From NCBI GenBank assembly GCA_009469675.1, contig SSSZ01000099.1, positions 1-64,000 on the forward strand: DNA of 64,000 bases, in the 5' to 3' direction. A program made the position numbers and the translations under genes. This DNA comes from Azonexaceae bacterium (lineage in GTDB: Bacteria > Pseudomonadota > Gammaproteobacteria > Burkholderiales > Rhodocyclaceae). The notes beneath the pieces are model-generated. The model had not been told where the DNA came from. It saw nothing but the letters and a program-made list of their open reading frames with translations, and ran no database searches. Below, in pieces: positions 223 to 10,254 of this stretch. The stretch's first letter is position 1. The number at the start of each line of letters is the position of its first letter.

Positions 223-1551
223 GTGGAAAGAAAGAACACATTGCGGGTGTCGGTTGCCGCCGTCTGGCTGGCGCTGGCCATTTCGCCGATGGCCGCCAGG
301 GCCGACGCCGTGACCGACCAGGCGCGGGGATTGATCGATCAGGGCAAAGGGGCCGAGGCCTATCGCCTCCTTGAGCCGCTCGAGGCGGACCGGGCCGGCG
401 ACACCACCTACGACCTGCTGCTCGGCATCGCGGCCCTTGAAGCCGGCCAGGGAACCCGCGGCATCTTTGCCCTGGAGCGCGTGCTGGCCCTGGAGCCGAA
501 CAACGTCCGGGCGCGGGCCGAAATCGCCCGAGCCTACATGGTGGTCGGCGAGGCCGACGCCGCCAAGGCCGAATTCGAAACCGCCAAGAAGCAGGGCGTG
601 CCGCCCGAAGTCGCCTCGACCATCGATAAGCTCATCGTCGCCATCGACCGCATGGCCGACGCCAGCCGCACGGCGATCAAGGGCTTCGTCGAAGCGAGCC
701 TGGGCTACGACACCAATATCAACGCCGCGCCCAACCGCGCCACCGTCGCCATTCCCGGCCTCGGCGGACTGCCCTTCGAGTTGTCGGCCAACAGCCGCAA
801 CGTCAAGGACGGTTTCGGTACCGTCGGCGCCGGCGTCAGCGTGCGCCACCCGCTGACCAAGGAGCTTGCCCTGGTGGGCGGGTTGGCCGGCAACCAGCGC
901 TGGAATTCCGCCCACCCCCGGTTCGACACCGGCAACGTCGACGCCCACGCCGGCCTGGTGCTGAGCCTCGACCGCAACGTCCTGTCGCTCACCGCCCAGT
1001 CGTCGACCCTCTACCTCGATGCCGACGACTACCGCCAGGCCGCCGGCCTCACCGCCCTCTGGCAGCACAACCTGGATGCCCGCAACCAGTTGAGCGCCTT
1101 CTTCCAGTATTCCGACCTCCAGTACACCCACCAGCCGATCCGTGACGCCGACCGCTACGTCCTGGGCGGCGCCTGGGCCCACGCCTTCCGCGACGGCCCC
1201 ATCACCTTCCTGAGCGCCTACGGCGCCCAGGAAAAGGAGCAGAAGGCCAACGTCCCCCATCTCGGCCACGACGCCTACGGCCTGCGGGCCGGCGGCCAGT
1301 GGGCCGTCGACGGCAAGACCACCCTGTTCGGCAGCGTGACCTACGAGCACCGGCGCTACGGCGGCATCGACCCTGCCTTCCTGGTGCGCCGCATCGACAA
1401 CCAGTACAACGTCAACGTCGGCGCCACCTACGCCCTGAGCAAGGAGTTGTCGGTGACGCCGCAAATCACCTATACCGACAACCAGTCCAACGCCGGCCTC
1501 AACGATTACCACCGGGAGATGTTCTCGGTGACGATCCGGCGCGAATTCTGA
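223..1551 (+). CDS. Slam-like outer-membrane protein (TPR + DUF560 barrel), copy 1
   Basis: Predicted outer-membrane translocon of the Slam type (surface lipoprotein assembly modulator; type XI secretion). The GTG start gives a signal peptide ending near ARA-DA (residue 28). Residues 30-150 form TPR-like helices (LLLGIAALEAGQGTRGI, VLALEPNNVRARAEIARAY). From about residue 155 the protein is a run of alternating, Tyr- and Asn-rich beta strands ending in VTIRREF. The C-terminal Phe is typical of BAM-inserted barrels, and the last part (QITYTDNQSNAGLND) matches the end of DUF560 proteins. It lies 12 bases before a FecR-domain protein, the presumed cargo. A paralogue lies near 6.2-7.5 kb. Barrel assignment is firm; the Slam function is inferred from family architecture and context. 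Confidence 0.8.
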   Translation: MERKNTLRVSVAAVWLALAISPMAARADAVTDQARGLIDQGKGAEAYRLLEPLEADRAGDTTYDLLLGIAALEAGQGTRGIFALERVLALEPNNVRARAEIARAYMVVGEADAAKAEFETAKKQGVPPEVASTIDKLIVAIDRMADASRTAIKGFVEASLGYDTNINAAPNRATVAIPGLGGLPFELSANSRNVKDGFGTVGAGVSVRHPLTKELALVGGLAGNQRWNSAHPRFDTGNVDAHAGLVLSLDRNVLSLTAQSSTLYLDADDYRQAAGLTALWQHNLDARNQLSAFFQYSDLQYTHQPIRDADRYVLGGAWAHAFRDGPITFLSAYGAQEKEQKANVPHLGHDAYGLRAGGQWAVDGKTTLFGSVTYEHRRYGGIDPAFLVRRIDNQYNVNVGATYALSKELSVTPQITYTDNQSNAGLNDYHREMFSVTIRREF

Positions 1552-1563
1552 CAGGGGGCCACC

Positions 1564-2940
1564 ATGGCGCAGAACCCGCTCCGTTTGAAAAACCACGTCC
1601 TCCTGATGGCCCTGGCCGCCGCCTATCCCGTCGTCTCCTACGGTGCTGCCGCGGCCCGCGTCGATTTCGCCGTCGGCACCGTGCAGGCGGTCGCCGCCGG
1701 GGGCGCCCAGCGGCCCCTCAGCAAGGGGGCCGAAATTTCCGCCGGCGAAACCATCCGCACCGGTGACGACGGCCGCGCCCAGCTGCGTTTCGCCGACGGC
1801 GCCCTGATGTCGCTTCAGCCCCGGACCGAATTCCGCATCGACGCCTACACCTACGCCAGCAAGGGCGAGGGTGAAGACAAGGGCTTCTTCAACCTCCTGA
1901 AGGGCGGCCTGCGCACCATCACCGGCCTGATCGGCCGCAGCAACCGCGACGCCTACCGGGTCACCACCCAGGTCGCCACCATCGGCATCCGCGGTACTGA
2001 ATACTCGGCCGGCTACACCAACGCCAACAACGATGCCCTGGTGGTGCACACCGGTGAGGGGCGCATCGAGGTCTGCAACGCCGGCGGCTGTGTTCTGATC
2101 GCGGGTGGCGAATCGGCCCTGGTCGGCGGTTCCAAGCAACCCCCGGCCCGTACCACGACGCCGCCCGTCCTGCGCCCGGCCCCGCCGGCGACGGCGGAGC
2201 AGGTGGTCTATGCGACCGGTGAAACCCGCTCCGCCAGCGGCGGATTGATTCCCCTGTCGACGCCGCTGCCCTCCGGCACCAATTACGCCGTGGCCCAGTT
2301 CGGCATCAAGGGCGGCTCGCCCTTCATCAACGCCATCTCGGCCCCGGGGTCGATCAACGCCACCTTCGGGCCGGCTTCCGAACTGCTGGGATTCAGCAAT
2401 TTCGCCAACAACTGGGCCGCCACCGAGATCGCCGGGACTTTCTCGACCGATGGCGTCATCGGCTGGGGCGTGTGGAAGACCGGCAACCTGGTGAATTCCG
2501 GGGTGGTCGATCCCCTGCAGAACATGCATTACGTCATCGGCGTGCCGACTTCGACCACCGATATGCTCTCCCTGGCCGGGATTACCGCCACCTTCGGCTT
2601 GGCGGGCTACACCTTCCCGACCACGCCGTCGGGTTTGGTTGGCGATGCGCCGGTGAGCGGCACCCTCACCGCTCAGTTCGGCGGCTCGCTGTCCACGCTG
2701 GTGGGCGTCGATATGACGGTGCCCGTTGCCGGCGTGACCCACAAGTTCAGCGGCACGATCTTCACGTCGGGCGTCGGGCCGGGGTTCTCGGGGACGGTGG
2801 CGTCCTGCGTCAATTGCAGCAGCACCTTCATCAACGGCTTCTTCGCCGGCCAGAACGCGTCCCATGCCGGCCTGACCTACCGCTTTGTTTCGACCCCACT
2901 GGGGGAACAGGTGGGCGGCGCCGCGGCCTTCAAACGCTAG
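1564..2940 (+). CDS. Exported FecR-domain protein with TbpB-like C-terminal domain, copy 1
   Basis: Likely a secreted or surface protein exported with the upstream Slam-like barrel. A signal peptide (to about residue 30) has no lipobox Cys, so the product would be soluble. Residues 33-190 are a FecR domain (GETIRTGDDGRAQLRFADG, VTTQVATIGIRGTEY). A Pro/Thr linker (about 195-215) leads to a beta-rich C-terminal half whose end (GFFAGQNASHAGLTYRF, then GGAAAFKR) resembles the closing strands of TbpB/fHbp/hemophilin-type barrels, which are known Slam substrates. A Cys415-x2-Cys418 pair precedes that signature. The FecR call is solid; the TbpB-like reading is my own motif comparison. There is no anti-sigma or transmembrane segment, so this is not a classical FecR regulator. 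The end overlaps the convergent glycosyltransferase by 11 bases. Confidence 0.78.
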   Translation: MAQNPLRLKNHVLLMALAAAYPVVSYGAAAARVDFAVGTVQAVAAGGAQRPLSKGAEISAGETIRTGDDGRAQLRFADGALMSLQPRTEFRIDAYTYASKGEGEDKGFFNLLKGGLRTITGLIGRSNRDAYRVTTQVATIGIRGTEYSAGYTNANNDALVVHTGEGRIEVCNAGGCVLIAGGESALVGGSKQPPARTTTPPVLRPAPPATAEQVVYATGETRSASGGLIPLSTPLPSGTNYAVAQFGIKGGSPFINAISAPGSINATFGPASELLGFSNFANNWAATEIAGTFSTDGVIGWGVWKTGNLVNSGVVDPLQNMHYVIGVPTSTTDMLSLAGITATFGLAGYTFPTTPSGLVGDAPVSGTLTAQFGGSLSTLVGVDMTVPVAGVTHKFSGTIFTSGVGPGFSGTVASCVNCSSTFINGFFAGQNASHAGLTYRFVSTPLGEQVGGAAAFKR

Positions 2941-3886
2941 CAGGGGCGGCCTGCAGCCAGGCCGCCAGGGCGGCCTGGACCGCCCTGCCGCCGAGGGCTT
3001 CGGCCCGGCTGCGGGCGGCCTCGCCCAAGCGCCGGCAGCGTTCGGGATGGCGGGCCAAATCGACGGCCTGCTCGTAAAGGCTTGCGCCGTCCCTGGCGAG
3101 CAGGCCGGTTTCGCCGTCGCTTATCCATTCGTCCAGGCCCTCGCCCGAGGCGACCACGGCACAGCCCGCGGCCATCGCCCGGCACAGGGGATGAAACGGC
3201 AGGCCACCGCCCGGGGCGGGGGCCGGCGTCACAAAAATGTCGGCGCCCGCCAGCCCGGCGGCAAACGCTTCTTCCGCCGGGGCCAGGGTGATGCCGGCCC
3301 ATTCCGCCGGCAGCTGCAGCCCGGGAATGGGCGGTAGGACGATGTCGATCCCGGCCAGACTCCAGGATTTATAGCGCGACCAATCGGCCGGTTCGACGCC
3401 GACCGCGGCAATCCGGGGGTAGGGGTTGGCACGCCTTGCCGGGACCGGGGGGACGGCCAGCAGGGGCGGGACGAGGCGGGCCTCGACACCGAGGGTTTCG
3501 CTGAGCTGGCGGCAGGACAGGGCGAGTTCGGCTTCCGGGAGCCGGCTGGCCCGCAGAACGCCGAGAAGACGGAAGAGCGCTTCGCCGTCGGCGCTATCGC
3601 TCCAAACAATGAGGCGCGCCGCCCGGCTGCGTTCGATCCAGGGCGAAAACGCCTGGCCGGGGCCGACGATGACCAGGGTGCCCCCCACCGGGTAGCTGCC
3701 GCCGAAGGCGCTCACCGTCTTGAGTCCCCCGGGGAACCCGGCAGCCGCCCGGGAGGGATGGCCGGTGTGCCAACCCTGGAGCGCGGCGCCGGCCAGGGCC
3801 TTCCCGAAGGCGATCGCCTGGGCACAGGCGCCGCCGCCTGTGCCAAAATCGGCGACGATATGAATCGGCTGCTTGTCTCCACCCAT
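2930..3886 (-). CDS. Putative GT4-like glycosyltransferase
   Basis: Predicted glycosyltransferase of GT-B fold, about 318 residues from the ATG at 3886. The C-terminal half carries the GT4-type nucleotide-sugar motif region: HPLCRAMAAGCAVVAS followed by GLDEWISDGETGLLARDG and a helical ARHPERCRRLGEAARSRAE tail. The N-terminal half starts MGGDKQPIHIVADFG and is more divergent. It is shorter than most GT4 enzymes. An in-frame extension upstream exists but is Arg/Pro-rich shadow sequence overlapping the divergent TPR gene, so I reject it. It diverges from the GT41-like gene with only 20 bases between starts, suggesting shared control. Donor and acceptor are unknown. Confidence 0.65.
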   Translation of the reverse strand: MGGDKQPIHIVADFGTGGGACAQAIAFGKALAGAALQGWHTGHPSRAAAGFPGGLKTVSAFGGSYPVGGTLVIVGPGQAFSPWIERSRAARLIVWSDSADGEALFRLLGVLRASRLPEAELALSCRQLSETLGVEARLVPPLLAVPPVPARRANPYPRIAAVGVEPADWSRYKSWSLAGIDIVLPPIPGLQLPAEWAGITLAPAEEAFAAGLAGADIFVTPAPAPGGGLPFHPLCRAMAAGCAVVASGEGLDEWISDGETGLLARDGASLYEQAVDLARHPERCRRLGEAARSRAEALGGRAVQAALAAWLQAAPASV

Positions 3887-3906
3887 GGACGGTCGGAATC
3901 TGCTTT

Positions 3907-6069
3907 GTGAACGATGAACGCATTCTAGCAATGGCCGCTTGCGGCCGCCTGCGCCTTGGCGAGTTCTGCCGCCGCCGCCTGGGGCTGGACGGCGCACCGG
4001 TAGGCGCCGGCGACTGGCTGGCGGCGGGGCAGCGCCTGCACGGCCTGGGGGAGCGCGAGGCGGCGCTGGCGGCCTTCGAGGCCGGCGCGGACCTGGAACC
4101 CGGCAACGCCGAGGCCTGGATGGCCGTCGCCACCCTGCGGGCCGAGCTGGACCGCCCCGAGGCGGCGCTGGCGGCGGCGCAGCGGGCACTCGCCCTGGCG
4201 CCGGCCCATCCGGGTGCCTGGCTCAACCTCGGCCTGCTGTGGCGGATCGCGGGCGACTTCGAAAAGGCATCGGCGTGCGTCGACCAAGCGCTCGCCGTAG
4301 AGCCCGCCCTGCCGGCGGCTTTGCTGACCCGCGGCCAAATTTTCGCCGCCCGGCAGCAACTCGACCTGGCGGCCGAGGCCTTTGCCGCCTGTCTCGACAG
4401 CGATCCCGCCCATGCCGATGCGGCCTTCGGCCTGGCCGACGTGGACTTGGCGCGGGGCGACTTCGCAGCGGCGGCGAGCCGCCTCGAAGCGCTGCTCGAG
4501 CTTCGACCGGATTGGGCGGAGGCGCGAATTGCCTTGGCCGTGGCGGCGGTCGGCCAGGGCGACGAAGACCGTGCCGACGCCCTGCTTGCCCAGGCCCGCC
4601 GGGACGATCCGGCGGCTTGCGCGGCCTATCGCCCGTTTTTTTCTGCCGACCGCCTGGGCGGCGTCGCCGTTCTCGATGCGTGGCGCTTTCGCGTCGCCAT
4701 GGAGTTCGCCACCCTGTACCAGTGCCGCTGGTCGCAGCGTTCGGCCTTTGTCGCCTGGCTGGAAAATACCCTTCTCGATGCCAGGCGGGGAGCACGCCTG
4801 GACGACCCGGACAGCCCCTTTCCAATTCTCAGCCTGGCCATCGACGGCCCGGCCCGCCTCAACCTGGCCCGCCACGTCGCCCGGCGGATCGCGGCGGCGG
4901 CCGGGCCGCCGCTGCGCCGGCCGGCCCGCCGGCCGGGCGGGCGCATCCGCCTGGGTTATCTCACGGGCGATCTGCGGGAACACCCCATCGGCCGGCTCGC
5001 CTCACGCCTCTTCGGTCTGCACGACCGGGAGCGCTTCGAAATCTTCGTCTATCACACCGGCCCGCGGGAAGATTGCGCGCCGCGCCGCCGCGCCGAGACC
5101 GAGGCCGATACCTTCCGCGACGTCGCCCGGCTGTCCGAGCGCGCCCTGGCGGCGCTGATCGCCGCCGACGGCATCGATATCGCCGTGGATCTTTCCGGCT
5201 ACACCCTGTTCAACCGCCTGGGTGCCCTGGCCCTCCGCCCGGCGCCGCTGCAGGTTGCCTACCTGGGCTATTTCGGCACCCTGGGGGCGGATTTCATCGA
5301 CTACACCCTGGCCGACCGCACCGTCCTGCTGCCCGCGGTGCGGCCCTTCTGGCAGGAGGCCGTCGCTTATCTGCCGGACTGTTTCTTCCTCTGCGACGAC
5401 ACCCTGCAGCCGCCGGCGGGAACCGTCAGCCGGGCAGATTTCGGCCTTCCCGGGACGGGATTCGTCTTCGCCTGCCTCAATTCGACCTGGAAAATCGAAC
5501 CCGCCGTTTTCGACGTCTGGATGCGCATTCTGGCGCGGGTGCCGGGCAGCGTCCTCTGGTTGTTCGATGGCGGATCACCTTTGGCCCGCCAGAACCTGGC
5601 GGCGGCCGCCCTGGCCCGGGGCATCGACGGAGGCCGCCTGGTCTTCGCCGACCACGCCCCCTATGAAGACTACCTGCGCCGCTACCAGGTGGTCGATCTG
5701 GTGCTCAACACCCTGACCTACAACGGCAACACGACGACGGTGGAGGCTCTGGCCATGGGGGTGCCGGTGCTCACCCTGGCCGGCGTCGAACTGCCGTCCC
5801 GCACCGCGGCGGGCCTCCTCCTCGCCCACGGGCTGCCCGATCTGGTGGTGGAAACCCTGGAAGCCTACGAGGCGCAGGCCGTGGGCCTGGCCGGGGACGG
5901 CACCGCCCGGGCCGAACTGCGGCGGCGTATCGGCGGCAACCGGTCCGCTTCCCGCCTGTTCTGCACGGAGCGCCGGGTGCGGGAGATCGAAAGCGCCCTG
6001 GCGGCGATGTGGGCGCGCCACCAGGCCGGCCTGCCGCCCGCCGATTTCGACGTGCCGCCGGTGGGGTGA
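3907..6069 (+). CDS. TPR-containing GT41 (O-GlcNAc transferase-like/SPINDLY) protein
   Basis: Predicted cytoplasmic protein glycosyltransferase. Residues 35-260 are repeated TPR helices (AHPGAWLNLGLLWRIAGDF and others). The catalytic region begins near residue 345 with RLGYLTGDLREHPIGR, the bacterial GT41 form of the conserved G-Y-x-S/T-x-D...H-P motif (His359). It continues with LQVAYLGYFGTLGADFIDY and the sugar-nucleotide site YNGNTTTVEALAMGVPVLTL (about 605-624), then SRTAAGLL. The 720-residue length fits TPR-GT41 fusions. Start is GTG, 20 bases from the divergent GT4 gene. It lies between two Slam/FecR pairs, which suggests modification of their products in the cytoplasm as HMW1C does for HMW1 adhesin. 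The substrate is inference. Confidence 0.85.
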   Translation: MNDERILAMAACGRLRLGEFCRRRLGLDGAPVGAGDWLAAGQRLHGLGEREAALAAFEAGADLEPGNAEAWMAVATLRAELDRPEAALAAAQRALALAPAHPGAWLNLGLLWRIAGDFEKASACVDQALAVEPALPAALLTRGQIFAARQQLDLAAEAFAACLDSDPAHADAAFGLADVDLARGDFAAAASRLEALLELRPDWAEARIALAVAAVGQGDEDRADALLAQARRDDPAACAAYRPFFSADRLGGVAVLDAWRFRVAMEFATLYQCRWSQRSAFVAWLENTLLDARRGARLDDPDSPFPILSLAIDGPARLNLARHVARRIAAAAGPPLRRPARRPGGRIRLGYLTGDLREHPIGRLASRLFGLHDRERFEIFVYHTGPREDCAPRRRAETEADTFRDVARLSERALAALIAADGIDIAVDLSGYTLFNRLGALALRPAPLQVAYLGYFGTLGADFIDYTLADRTVLLPAVRPFWQEAVAYLPDCFFLCDDTLQPPAGTVSRADFGLPGTGFVFACLNSTWKIEPAVFDVWMRILARVPGSVLWLFDGGSPLARQNLAAAALARGIDGGRLVFADHAPYEDYLRRYQVVDLVLNTLTYNGNTTTVEALAMGVPVLTLAGVELPSRTAAGLLLAHGLPDLVVETLEAYEAQAVGLAGDGTARAELRRRIGGNRSASRLFCTERRVREIESALAAMWARHQAGLPPADFDVPPVG

Positions 6070-6099
6070 GCGGCGGCGGGCCGGATGGGCTTGTCATGG

Positions 6100-6182
6100 C
6101 TGGATGGGGTGTTGTTGATTTTTTAGTTAAATTAGTGTGTTATGTAGGAAAATTAAAGTAATTGGTCAGGCGGGGTGTGGTG
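6100..6182 (+). promoter_or_regulatory. AT-rich promoter region of the second Slam/FecR pair
   Basis: An abrupt AT-rich stretch in otherwise very GC-rich DNA, rich in TTG/TTA/TAT steps. TTGATT (6115-6120) and TATGTA (6141-6146) are the best -35/-10 pair, although the 20-base spacing is long. AGGCGGGG at 6168-6175 can serve as ribosome binding site for the GTG at 6183. It suggests copy 2 has its own promoter rather than depending on the GT41 gene. Confidence 0.4.
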
Positions 6183-7499
6183 GTGAAAATTTTCTTGCGG
6201 GTTGTCTTGTCGGGTCTGGCCGCCACCTGGGGATCCCTAGCGCTGGCACAAAAGGCCCAGGAGGAAACCGAACTCCTGCGTAGCGGCCGCGCCAAGGAGG
6301 CCTACGAGCGGCTGCTGGGGGAAGAGGCGGCCCAGGCCGGGCAGGTCGATTTCGATTATCTTCTCGGGCGGGCCGCCCTCGATGCCGGAAATGCCGCCAA
6401 GGCGACCCTGGTCTTTGAGCGGGTACTGACCGTCGCCCCCAATCACGCTGGTGCGCGGCTCGACATGGGGCGGGCCTATTTCGCCCTGGGCGACTTCGAA
6501 CGCGCCCGCGCCGAGTTTGCGGCAGTGCAAGCCCTCGATCCCCCGCCGGCTGCCCGGGCGACCATCGACGAGTACCTGGCGGCCATGGAAAACCGGCCGC
6601 GGCAGGCCCGTTCCGCCGCCAGCGCCTATGTCGAGGCCGGCGTGGGCCGCGATAGCAACGTCACCGTCGGCCCCCGTAGCGCCACGGTCATGCTGCCTGT
6701 CTTCGGCCTCAGCTTCACCCTTTCGGACGGGGCGCGCGCCAAGGGCGACAGCTACCATGCGGTCAATGCCGGGGGCGAGGTGGTGCACCAGCTTGACGGT
6801 CAGCGGGCGGTTTTCGCCGGGGCCGACCTGCGGTTTCGCAATTACCCCAAGGTCGATGCCTTCGACCAGCTGAGCGGCGAGGTGCGGGGCGGCGTGATCT
6901 GGAACCGGGCCGAGGGGATTTATCGTGCCTATGTCTCGTTCAACGATTTCCGCCTGGGGGACGAGCGCTACCGCGAAGTGACCACCCTGGGCGGCGACTG
7001 GCGCCATGCCCTGGAGGCGCGCCACCAGCTTGCCGTTTTCGGGCAGTGGTCGGCCATTCGCCATGTGCAGCGGGCCATGCAGGCGAGCGACTACGACCAA
7101 TACCTATTCGGCGCCGGCTGGACCCTGCTGCCGGCGGCGACCGGCGGCTTGATGCTTTCCGGCGCCGTCTTCGGCGGCGGCGAAGTCGAGCAGGAGCGCC
7201 GCAGCGACGGCAACAAGCTGCTGGCTGGCGTGCGGGGCGGCGCCCAGTACGGCCCCCGCGCCGACACCGATGTTTTTGCCGGAGTCTCGTGGCAGTACGG
7301 TCGCTACGATCGTACCAATGCCCTCTACGGCGAGCGGCGCCGCGACAACCAGTTCGACCTCAACCTCGGGGCGGCCTGGCGTTTCGCGCCCAGCTGGAGC
7401 CTGCGCCCGACCGTGACGTGGACCCAGAACGAATCGAACACGTCGATCAACAAGTACCAGCGCGGCGAAGCGAGCGTCTTCGTGCGCCGGGATTTCTGA
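6183..7499 (+). CDS. Slam-like outer-membrane protein (TPR + DUF560 barrel), copy 2
   Basis: Paralogue of the barrel protein at the start of the window, same architecture. A signal peptide (MKIFLRVVLSGLAATWGSLA, cleavage after ALA) is followed by TPR-like helices (YLLGRAALDAGNAAKATLVF, LTVAPNHAGARLDMGRAYFA). From about residue 145 there is a beta-barrel domain beginning AYVEAGVGRDSNVTVGP and ending ASVFVRRDF with terminal Phe. The end (WTQNESNTSINKYQRGE) aligns with the corresponding end of copy 1 (YTDNQSNAGLNDYHREM). I chose the GTG preceded by AGGCGGGG; upstream in-frame TTG/GTG codons (6162, 6177, 6180) are possible. One base separates its stop from the FecR-domain cargo gene, indicating tight coupling. 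Predicted to translocate that cargo across the outer membrane. Confidence 0.8.
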   Translation: MKIFLRVVLSGLAATWGSLALAQKAQEETELLRSGRAKEAYERLLGEEAAQAGQVDFDYLLGRAALDAGNAAKATLVFERVLTVAPNHAGARLDMGRAYFALGDFERARAEFAAVQALDPPPAARATIDEYLAAMENRPRQARSAASAYVEAGVGRDSNVTVGPRSATVMLPVFGLSFTLSDGARAKGDSYHAVNAGGEVVHQLDGQRAVFAGADLRFRNYPKVDAFDQLSGEVRGGVIWNRAEGIYRAYVSFNDFRLGDERYREVTTLGGDWRHALEARHQLAVFGQWSAIRHVQRAMQASDYDQYLFGAGWTLLPAATGGLMLSGAVFGGGEVEQERRSDGNKLLAGVRGGAQYGPRADTDVFAGVSWQYGRYDRTNALYGERRRDNQFDLNLGAAWRFAPSWSLRPTVTWTQNESNTSINKYQRGEASVFVRRDF

Positions 7500-7500
7500 G

Positions 7501-9087
7501 ATGCGCGCCATGAGAATCCTGCCTTTTCTGTTCGCCCTGGCGGTGCTCCTGGGGCCGGTGGCGGCCTGGGCCGATGCCGGCGAGGTCCGTTTTGCCCAGG
7601 GCGATGTCCACATTCTGCGTGCCGGCGGCAAAGCCGAGAGCGCCGTGCGCGGAACCCGGCTGCACGAGGGGGACACCATCGTCACCGGCGCCGGGGGCTA
7701 TGCCCAGCTGACCATGGTGGACGACGCCATTGTCGCCGTCCGCCCCGATACCCGCCTGAAAGTCGAGACCTATCGCTATTCCGGCAAGGTCGACGGCAGC
7801 GAAAAGGGCGTCTGGGGGCTGGTGCGGGGCGGCTTCCGCACCCTGACCGGCTGGATCGGCCGCAACAACAAGGACGCCTACGCGGTCCGCACGCCCACCG
7901 CCACCATCGGCATCCGCGGCACCGACCACGAGCCGATGTACATTCCGCCGCCGGCGGCGGGCGAGATTCCCCTCGGCGAGCCTGGCACCTACAACAAGGT
8001 CAATTCCGGCCAGACCTACATCCAGACCGGCGGCGGGCGGCTCGAGCTGGGAGCCAATCAGGTGGGATTCGCCGCCGCCCGGGGCGACGCGCCGCCGGTG
8101 CGGCTGGCCCAGATGCCGTCCTTCATGAAGGTGACGCCACCCCTGCGGCCGGTGGGCAGCGGCCCCCGCGACAAGGAGCGGCAGGAACGCCAGGAGCGGG
8201 GCGATATCCTGCCGCAGCGTCCGCCGCCGCCCCCGGCGCTGGTGGCCATGGCGCTGGCGGAAGCGCCGGTCCCCCTGCTGCCGCCGGCGCTATTGCCGCC
8301 CGTCCAGGCCGGCACGGTGGATCCCCGCTATATCCCGCCCGGTTCGACGCCGGCCCCGCTGGGTTACGTGGCGGCGGGCGGCGATCTCAGTCCGGGCGTG
8401 CTCGACAACGGCGCCCTGGTGGTCGGCAACCCGCTGGAAAACGGCGCCGTGCTGCTCGGCCCGGCGGGGCTGCCCTTGGCCGTCGGCACCTCGGGAGGCT
8501 TCAATTACAGCAGCGATGGCGCTCCCGTGGTCGATGCCGGCACCACCACGGTGGGCAGCCATACCATCAACTGGGGCATCTACGCCGGAGGGACGATCAG
8601 CGACAACGCCGGGGTGCGCCATCCCCAGTATTTCTTCTTCATGGGGGGCGGCATTGCCAGCACGCCGGCCACCCTCGCCGCAACCTTGCCCGGGGCGGGG
8701 GCGACGCTGTCCTTCAGTTCCGTGGGGGGCTACACCAAGCCCATCACCGAGAGCGGTGCCGTTGGCGGCAGCGTGGGCAGCATTCTTGTCGAACTCAAGA
8801 ACGTGGGGGGCAACATCATGGTCTCCAAGTACAACCTCGGCGTGACCGACGCCCTGGGCCGCACCTGGTCGACTTCGATGCCGGCGCCGGTGCCCCTGGG
8901 AGCCTTCGTGATCGGTGGGACGGGAACCCCCAACCTGAGCGTCGGCTGTGCCGGTTGCACGGCTTCAACCGGCACCGGAAACGCCCGCGGGGCGCCCTTC
9001 GGCAACCCTGTGCCCCTGGGTGCCATCACCTCCTACTCGCTGCAAGCCGGCACCTCGGGAGTGGTCGGCGCCGTCCTCGCCAAGTAG
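7501..9087 (+). CDS. Exported FecR-domain protein with TbpB-like C-terminal domain, copy 2
   Basis: Presumed cargo of the preceding Slam-like barrel and paralogue of the FecR protein of copy 1. It has a signal peptide without lipobox (cleavage near AWA-DAG). The FecR domain covers residues 25-190 (GDTIVTGAGGYAQLTMVDD, VRTPTATIGIRGTDHE). A long Pro-rich linker follows (about 225-280, with runs of Pro). The beta-rich C-terminal domain starts near residue 330 and ends GNPVPLGAITSYSLQ then GVVGAVLAK. Cys483-x2-Cys486 sits 45 residues before the end, the same place as the CxxC of copy 1. ATG codons at 7501 and 7510 are both possible. The two cargo proteins share domain order but have diverged strongly in the C-terminal half. 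Confidence 0.78.
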   Translation: MRAMRILPFLFALAVLLGPVAAWADAGEVRFAQGDVHILRAGGKAESAVRGTRLHEGDTIVTGAGGYAQLTMVDDAIVAVRPDTRLKVETYRYSGKVDGSEKGVWGLVRGGFRTLTGWIGRNNKDAYAVRTPTATIGIRGTDHEPMYIPPPAAGEIPLGEPGTYNKVNSGQTYIQTGGGRLELGANQVGFAAARGDAPPVRLAQMPSFMKVTPPLRPVGSGPRDKERQERQERGDILPQRPPPPPALVAMALAEAPVPLLPPALLPPVQAGTVDPRYIPPGSTPAPLGYVAAGGDLSPGVLDNGALVVGNPLENGAVLLGPAGLPLAVGTSGGFNYSSDGAPVVDAGTTTVGSHTINWGIYAGGTISDNAGVRHPQYFFFMGGGIASTPATLAATLPGAGATLSFSSVGGYTKPITESGAVGGSVGSILVELKNVGGNIMVSKYNLGVTDALGRTWSTSMPAPVPLGAFVIGGTGTPNLSVGCAGCTASTGTGNARGAPFGNPVPLGAITSYSLQAGTSGVVGAVLAK

Positions 9088-9121: not shown

Positions 9122-9706
9122 TCAGAGATGGGCGATGGCCATGCCGCCCAGGACGAGGCCGCCGCCGGCCGCCAGATAAGTCGCGTAGGTCAGCCAGCGC
9201 TTGCGGGTGAGCAGGCTGATGGCCGCCATGGCGATGGAAATCTGGATGGCGGTCATGGCCTGGGCCCAGCGGTGGTGCAGGTGCATCGACTCGTCGCTTT
9301 TCTTTTCCAGCTCCTTGACCTCGGCCTCGAATTTCTCGGCTTCCTTCTTGATTTCGCCCTTTTCGCCCTTGTAGCGCTCGGCCTCCTGCTGGTACTTCTC
9401 CTTTTTTTCGCCTTCGTTGAGGGCGACGGCGAGTTCGGCCAGGTTCTGCTTGTTGCTCTTGGCCTGGTAGTAGTTCCACTGGTTGGAGGCCTCGGTCTTT
9501 TTGATCGCTGCGGCGTTCTTGTGCAGCATGGCGTCGTTCTGGGTGGCGCCGCCCTGGTAGCTGAAAAGGGCGCCGACGGTCGATAGCACCGCCGTCATCA
9601 CCGCGATACGCGAAGCGAAGCCGTCGTCGTTGTCGTGGCTGCCGTGGGCGTGGTGCTCGACGGCATGGTCGTGGGGGCCGTGAACATGAAAGCCGTGTCC
9701 GGACAT
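9122..9706 (-). CDS. DUF4337-like small membrane protein
   Basis: About 194 residues. The N-terminus is His-rich (HVHGPHDHAVEHHAHGSHD). A hydrophobic segment follows (about 33-50), then a Lys/Glu-rich coiled-coil-like middle (residues 75-135) and two closely spaced C-terminal membrane helices ending GLVLGGMAIAHL. This order is characteristic of DUF4337, a family of unknown function. The ATG at 9706 is preceded by a strong AAGGAG ribosome binding site; the longer upstream frame lacks one. It is convergent with the second FecR-domain gene and follows folA on the same strand. The His-rich N-terminus could bind metal, which is speculation. Confidence 0.7.
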   Translation of the reverse strand: MSGHGFHVHGPHDHAVEHHAHGSHDNDDGFASRIAVMTAVLSTVGALFSYQGGATQNDAMLHKNAAAIKKTEASNQWNYYQAKSNKQNLAELAVALNEGEKKEKYQQEAERYKGEKGEIKKEAEKFEAEVKELEKKSDESMHLHHRWAQAMTAIQISIAMAAISLLTRKRWLTYATYLAAGGGLVLGGMAIAHL

Positions 9707-9723
9707 GGGTAAAACTCCTTTTT

Positions 9724-10254
9724 CTAACGAATGCGAGTGTAGGTTTTGAATGCGAAACGGGTGCCGTCGGTCGCCGTGTGGTCCTCGCGCCCGGCTTCCC
9801 GCCACCGATCCGGGGCGATCGGAGGAAAAAGCGCGTCGCCGCGGGGCGCCAGATCCACCTCGGTGATGAGCAGTTGCTCGGCCAGCGGCAGGGCCTGAGC
9901 GTAGAGTTCGCCGCCGCCGACGACGAAGACGGGCGGTGTTTCCCCCAGATCGGGGCGGCTGTCGGCCATTTCAAGGGCGGCGGCAAGGGAGCCTGCAACC
10001 TCGGCGCCCGGCGCGTCGTAGTTGGTCTGGCGGCTGACCACGATGTTGCGCCGGCCGGGCAGGGGGCGAAAGCGCGGCGGGAGCGATTCCCAGGTCTTGC
10101 GGCCCATGACCACGGTGTGGCCCAGGGTGGCGGCCTTGAACCGCTGCATGTCGAGGGGGTCGCGCCATACTAAGTCGTTGCCGCGGCCGATCACCCGGTT
10201 TTTGGCGACGGCGGCGATGAGGATGAGGCGGTGGCGGGGGGGCGGATTTTCCAT
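9724..10254 (-). CDS. folA: Dihydrofolate reductase
   Basis: Reduces 7,8-dihydrofolate to tetrahydrofolate with NADPH, in the cytoplasm. About 176 residues, slightly longer than typical FolA. Family motifs appear in order: LILIAAVAKNRVIGRGNDLVW at the N-terminus, the cofactor segment VVMGRKTWESLP, the region GRRNIVVSRQ, the VFVVGGGELYAQALP motif and the C-terminal strand TRFAFKTYTRI. An ATG at 10263, three codons upstream, is an alternative start. It follows glgA by 1-10 bases on the same strand, so it is probably the last or second-last gene of the glycogen operon transcript, an odd partner for glycogen genes. thyA, its functional partner, is 18 kb away. Confidence 0.93.
   Translation of the reverse strand: MENPPPRHRLILIAAVAKNRVIGRGNDLVWRDPLDMQRFKAATLGHTVVMGRKTWESLPPRFRPLPGRRNIVVSRQTNYDAPGAEVAGSLAAALEMADSRPDLGETPPVFVVGGGELYAQALPLAEQLLITEVDLAPRGDALFPPIAPDRWREAGREDHTATDGTRFAFKTYTRIR

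Follow-up and report, generated by a model that had tools for sequence, protein, structure and literature searches.

The 64,000-nucleotide stretch analysed here (the window) spans positions 1 to 64,000 of contig SSSZ01000099.1 of an Azonexaceae bacterium (assembly GCA_009469675.1), and the first 9.1 kb hold six genes whose reading frames agree with the GC content by codon position (0.67/0.46/0.91 in Slam1). Four of these genes form two pairs, each composed of a Slam-like, predicted outer-membrane protein and a predicted exported protein with a FecR domain, hereafter called the cargo (Table 1). The intergenic gaps are 12 bases in pair 1 and 1 base in pair 2. Two Slam-like/FecR-cargo pairs with these gaps had been proposed from the letters of the DNA as a duplicated type XI secretion locus, and both the Pfam matches and the gene coordinates bear the pairs out. 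The two glycosyltransferase genes that separate them were absent from this original prediction. The window begins at contig base 1 and nothing upstream is visible. No Slam-family gene beyond Slam1 and Slam2 was found on searching the genome assembly.

Table 1. Genes and protein domains in the first 9.1 kb of the window (aa, amino acids; TPR, tetratricopeptide repeat; pLDDT, predicted local distance difference test).
Feature	Position	Strand	Support
Slam1, TPR + SlipAM/DUF560 outer-membrane barrel, 442 aa	223..1551	+	PF04575 47.1 bits (cut-off 22), TPR_19 38.8 bits
Cargo1, 458 aa: signal peptide without lipobox, FecR domain, linker, predicted TbpB-like barrel	1564..2940	+	PF04773 47.8 bits; AlphaFold2 pLDDT 83.8
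Cargo1 FecR-fold domain, residues 31-197	1654..2154	+	
Cargo1 Pro-rich low-confidence linker, residues 198-237	2155..2274	+	
Cargo1 predicted TbpB-like C-terminal domain, residues 238-458	2275..2937	+	
GT4-type glycosyltransferase, convergent with cargo1	2930..3886	-	PF13692 32.3 bits
TPR + GT41 (OGT/SPINDLY-type) glycosyltransferase, 720 aa	3907..6069	+	PF13844 238 bits
Slam2, TPR + SlipAM/DUF560 outer-membrane barrel, 445 aa	6162..7499	+	PF04575 31.4 bits (cut-off 22), TPR_19 41.6 bits
Cargo2, 528 aa: signal peptide without lipobox, FecR domain, linker, predicted TbpB-like barrel	7501..9087	+	PF04773 31.6 bits; AlphaFold2 pLDDT 87.6
Cargo2 FecR-fold domain, residues 25-210	7573..8130	+	
Cargo2 Pro-rich linker, residues 211-285	8131..8355	+	pLDDT <50 at 214-240 and 245-264
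Cargo2 predicted TbpB-like C-terminal domain, residues 286-528	8356..9084	+	

By sequence, both outer-membrane proteins of the window are members of the Slam family (type XI secretion). The predicted DUF560 similarity was recovered with the SlipAM model, whose cut-off both proteins passed with matches covering most of the barrel, and which matched 50 of the 51 members of the Slam alignment at E ≤0.001. The N-terminal repeats of both Slams correspond to TPR_19; the specific TPR_Slam model matched just 1 of the 51 alignment members.

Both cargos likewise passed the FecR cut-off (PF04773, 24 bits), and the FecR model matches all 67 members of alignment A1, which provides the cargo1 profile. Over the FecR part, cargo1 and cargo2 are 37% identical. 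In both proteins a signal-peptide-like start, read by eye, lies immediately before the FecR domain, and neither signal region contains a cysteine, so that the lipobox of Slam-dependent surface lipoproteins is absent, as had been proposed. Comparison of predicted structures matched the C-terminal halves of both cargos to the folds of TbpB, NHBA, fHbp and HphA; the TbpB-like fold suggested earlier is thus upheld by the predicted models. This assignment rests on predicted structure; Pfam TbpB_B_D was not found by sequence in the window cargos. Hits to this family in one of the 67 A1 members (E 0.036) and in one more relative, P0262 (E 0.016), failed to reach the Pfam cut-off or significance. The linker joining the two domains measures 36-74 residues in 67 of 67 aligned cargo1-type sequences, where its median proline fraction is 0.15 against 0.045 overall, and 52-134 residues in 73 of 73 cargo2-type sequences; the minimum across aligned cargos is therefore 36 residues. 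In A1, Cys171 and Cys176 of cargo1 are invariant, and conservation is higher in FecR than in the barrel (0.71 versus 0.53).

Several variants of this domain order were seen. At L101:795-6002 (minus strand), a 1735-residue cargo next to a Slam gene combines a FecR domain with an extended Ala-rich region, and four barrels were detected in it; cargos with two or three barrels occur in L060, L067, L087 and L110. In L106, L107, L108, L113, L141, L142 and L144, the partner of Slam has a FecR domain and no barrel was detected in it; in the first three of these loci, a second FecR protein comes after this partner. Short exported proteins with FecR as their only domain and a Pro-rich tail, about 245-280 residues long (L010:4824-5615, L009:382-1143, L012:10490-11227 and others), sit immediately upstream of Slam (14 cases among the cargo-first loci described below) or after GT41. 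The genome of the window itself (C70) encodes a further FecR protein, with a C-terminal SPOR domain, at L116:4434-5339. In the BFVD viral fold library, the cargo1 model matches two proteins of uncultured Caudovirales named FecR (E 7.9e-13 and 2.8e-10).

Slam1 and Slam2 are 32% identical. In a comparison of 105 pairs, pair 2 is nearest L088, L023 and L102 for both FecR and barrel, and nearest L088, L023 and then L101 for Slam; pair 1 is nearest a different set of loci, and both pair types lie side by side in L023 and L088. A recent tandem duplication was rejected on account of the low Slam identity and because the nearest counterparts of either pair lie in other genomes. As judged from these comparisons, the two pairs are old paralogues, and the predicted duplicated locus stands with the refinement that the duplication is ancient. 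The nearest-neighbour pattern fits Slam and cargo partners that stay together. Over the same 105 pairs, distances in Slam correlated more strongly with those in FecR (rho 0.80) than with those in the barrel (0.62), also as partial correlations (0.69 versus 0.30), and FecR still tracked Slam better when restricted to its 80 most variable columns (0.71 versus 0.62 for the barrel).

The recurrence of the pairing was examined in three surveys (cargo-first, Pfam-first and Slam-first), which overlap in genomes so that their counts are not additive. The cargo-first survey, run with the A1 profile, gave 76 distinct loci as the best of 328 confirmed stretches. A Slam gene scoring >160 bits was present in 71 of the 76. 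Under a strict 400-base rule, Slam lay directly upstream of the best cargo open reading frame (ORF) in 62 loci, only downstream in 5, and in neither position in 9. Among these nine, a second cargo lies in between in L014 and L019, ORFs were over-called in L022 and L079, and no Slam was found within the examined stretch in L056, L069, L071, L074 and L075.

The Pfam-first survey of 121 genomes of the bacterium's own family yielded 29 PF04575 matches at E ≤0.001 in 24 genomes, 27 of them above the cut-off. When neighbourhoods were read individually, a FecR gene was found beside 23 of the 29 matches (22 of the 27 above cut-off). One of the other six (L109) stands with a FecR-less, lipoprotein-like barrel protein, and five had neither partner by our profiles. 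In the Slam-first survey, profile A3 matched 64 of the 121 family genomes at E ≤0.001 and 26 at E <1e-60 (31 genes); at class level, 62 of 369 genomes matched at 1e-30. Neighbourhoods of 101 genes outside the window (29 family, 72 class) were examined, a FecR neighbour being defined as an ORF ≤500 bases away on the same strand with an overlap of ≤1000 bases (mechanical ORF calls); a few such neighbours lay upstream. A FecR ORF was present beside 91 of the 101 genes, a FecR-less barrel beside 1, and neither beside 9, of which five lie at the end of a contig and four score low (108-126 bits). Of the 91 FecR neighbourhoods, 60 showed a barrel. The 91/101 figure is partly circular because A3 was built from Slams beside FecR cargo; the 23/29 figure rests on Pfam's own model. 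In a control set of ten weaker or outlying Slam-like genes, three had a FecR neighbour (L121, L123 and L126) and seven had none, which indicates that the FecR link belongs to a branch and not to every Slam-like gene. The survey of DUF560 genes beside FecR genes called for in the original prediction thus shows that the pairing recurs, and both counts fit the new cargo class it had put forward.

In order to compare the two possible anchors, identical strict and relaxed lipobox patterns were run on FecR-less and FecR-bearing proteins. The strict motif was observed in 10 of the 14 FecR-less relatives whose N-terminus is intact, as against 5 of the 92 Slam neighbours that carry FecR (Fisher p 7.8e-8), and the relaxed pattern in 14 of 14 and 11 of 92, respectively (p 4.2e-11). 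The cysteine of the motif is invariant across 13 aligned FecR-less proteins, and among FecR-bearing alignment members lipobox-like motifs occur in 11 of 67 (A1) and 7 of 73 (A2). A first count was set aside as uneven, since it comprised 6 of 92 FecR-bearing proteins (2 with the motif upstream of the likely start) against 14 of 14 FecR-less ones (4 called by eye); evenly applied patterns shrank the contrast and left its direction the same. The profile of the FecR-less type, A4, matched 8 of 395 family genomes, one (G015) at full length and seven partially, and gave a single match in the 369 class genomes, partial and within the FecR-bearing locus L128. On these motif counts, the FecR domain and a lipid anchor appear to substitute for each other, and FecR likely holds the cargo at Slam instead of a lipid.

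No GT41 gene other than the one between the two pairs was found in the genome assembly. The closest solved relatives of its product are human OGT (E 7.8e-87), SPINDLY and XcOGT, whereas HMW1C is matched at E 8.4e-11 and the enzyme scores 42.3 bits with the HMW1C-type N-glycosyltransferase model NF049992, whose cut-off is 1000 bits. In 25 of 71 cargo-first loci and 8 of 28 family loci, a GT41 gene on the strand of the cargo starts ≤1.5 kb downstream of it; 5 and 1 further loci, respectively, have GT41 at another place in the stretch. Among 64 class-level loci with Slam, in stretches of about 4 kb on each side, there was none. Since GT41 is common across the family (71 of 121 genomes), it is position, not presence, that is informative. 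Two cultured relatives, Azospira oryzae and Methyloversatilis universalis, each have a Slam-cargo pair, and of their two loci only that of Azospira showed a GT41 gene. GT4 homologues were present in 13 of the loci retrieved, three of them contigs that enter this count twice, and in 12 of the 13 the GT4 gene sits, as it does in the window, between cargo and GT41 and is encoded opposite to the cargo; in the remaining one, L009, no GT41 was found in the examined stretch. Beyond the FecR domain, cargos with GT41 have a slightly higher Ser+Thr fraction than those without (0.23 versus 0.21; 0.24 versus 0.20), a difference uncorrected for kinship and not used as evidence, and sequons in the cargo did not differ consistently between the two groups. 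The enzyme probably modifies the cargo. Glycosylation of other type XI secretion system (T11SS) cargo has been suggested by survey authors, and the recurrent GT41 gene makes this suggestion testable.

Other observations concern the surroundings of these genes. An AT-rich stretch at 6070-6161, immediately 5' of Slam2 in a window of 68% GC, is a candidate promoter region. A DUF4337 protein (141.9 bits) adjoins cargo2 at 9122-9805 on the minus strand. The order Slam-cargo-GT41, otherwise found here mainly in Rhodocyclaceae, also occurs in L076, a contig from a metagenome-assembled genome titled Klebsiella pneumoniae, which is possibly mislabelled or a mixed bin.

The reading that we favour, at a probability of roughly 0.55, is that Slam moves the barrel to the surface and FecR folds on the periplasmic side, replacing the lipid as the anchor of known surface cargo. 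Export by Sec would come first; the unfolded barrel would then thread through Slam and fold outside. The folded FecR domain, perhaps disulfide-locked in cargo1 via Cys171/Cys176, would arrest at the periplasmic mouth with the linker spanning the pore, and the diversified barrel would be displayed on the surface. In lineages that have GT41, the enzyme would glycosylate the cargo in the cytoplasm before export. According to PMC9090332, Slam in vitro translocated TbpB only when it had been unfolded with urea, and hence a folded domain could stall. As described in PMC6890996, LapA stays anchored in a TolC-like outer-membrane subunit by a stable N-terminal retention domain. More tentatively, and with somewhat less than even confidence, we propose a lipid-free type XI branch in which a cargo-occupied Slam would serve both as exporter and as permanent surface mount, FecR plugging its periplasmic side like the LapA retention module and holding a fast-diversifying TbpB-like display that would be decorated by an OGT-type enzyme in one lineage.

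The window cargos, with one C-terminal barrel and no lipobox, also resemble soluble type XI cargo, and the whole protein including FecR could be released like hemophilin, with FecR as a ligand-binding N-terminal effector. Subcluster 1B, as presented in PMC8406197, comprises such non-lipidated cargo with an SPI signal peptide, a single C-terminal barrel and predicted soluble secretion. However, one would expect the greatest variation in an effector domain, whereas FecR is the more conserved part and tracks Slam while the barrel diversifies; the FecR-less relatives are, moreover, lipoprotein-like. We consider release of this kind rather unlikely. The outer-membrane protein might instead be a TPR-plus-porin exporter or assembly factor, for polysaccharide for example, with the FecR protein as its periplasmic partner. 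Slam1 does weakly match EpsL and another PEP-CTERM-associated outer-membrane protein and passes the BBP2_2 cut-off, glycosyltransferases lie nearby, and in 31 of the 91 FecR neighbourhoods no barrel was detected. Yet the match to EpsL falls far short of the EpsL cut-off (35.2 versus 275), SlipAM passes its cut-off over most of the barrel, and the partner carries, in the predicted models, the TbpB-type domain of known T11SS cargo, all of which makes this explanation improbable. The FecR domain could finally point to iron signalling, relaying the signal of a TonB-dependent receptor to a sigma factor, with Slam as an incidental neighbour. We regard this as very improbable: none of the 8 genes scanned within the first 12 kb encodes a sigma factor, a TonB receptor or an anti-sigma domain (sequence upstream of the contig start being unseen), the cargo signal peptide stands directly before FecR, and the Slam pairing recurs.

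In a literature search that left supplementary tables, preprints and most subscription journals outside its scope, no description of FecR combined with DUF560, Slam, T11SS, TXISS or SlipAM was found, and the term FecR is absent from the main texts of the T11SS surveys PMC12282271 and PMC8406197. The FecR-cargo layout is thus probably undescribed, although the genes could sit unlabelled in a published DUF560 cluster. Like the known type XI systems for TbpB, fHbp and hemophilin, the window combines a TPR + SlipAM barrel with an adjacent predicted exported protein whose C-terminal domain is predicted to be TbpB-like. Unlike known type XI cargo, the window cargos have an N-terminal FecR domain and no lipobox, and unlike at known type XI loci, none of the 8 genes scanned encodes a TonB receptor. 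Most Slam/DUF560 clusters are without verified cargo, and a branch present in 62 of 369 class genomes, its cargo recognisable by a FecR domain, opens this gap to direct tests. If FecR does replace the lipid, it would be a second way of keeping type XI cargo at the surface.

HMW1C-like enzymes modify exported adhesins. The window GT41 shares the combination of TPR and GT41 domains with OGT, SPINDLY and HMW1C, but its neighbouring cargo belongs to type XI and not, as in the HMW1C setting, to two-partner secretion. A link between HMW1C-like enzymes and adhesion is also drawn in published work. With LapA-type RTX adhesins the cargos have in common an N-terminal domain before a linker, and the anchoring domain of an RTX adhesin, 5ix9, was found by the cargo profiles (E 3.6e-4 and 1.5e-3) and as a partial fold match, for cargo2. 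The translocon is different, however; the cargos score 32.8 and 22.0 bits with the LapA-type retention module NF033682 (cut-off 50), the di-alanine LapG site is not conserved (1 of 67 and 7 of 73 aligned sequences have [TPAV]AAG in their linker region), and the Pfam scan of both cargos returned no RTX family. With the FecR/PupR signalling regulators, finally, the cargos share the FecR fold, but they carry a signal peptide in place of the cytoplasmic anti-sigma part, a fused barrel predicted to be TbpB-like and a Slam partner. If the favoured reading is true, it would assign a role to those FecR domains that lie outside iron signalling.
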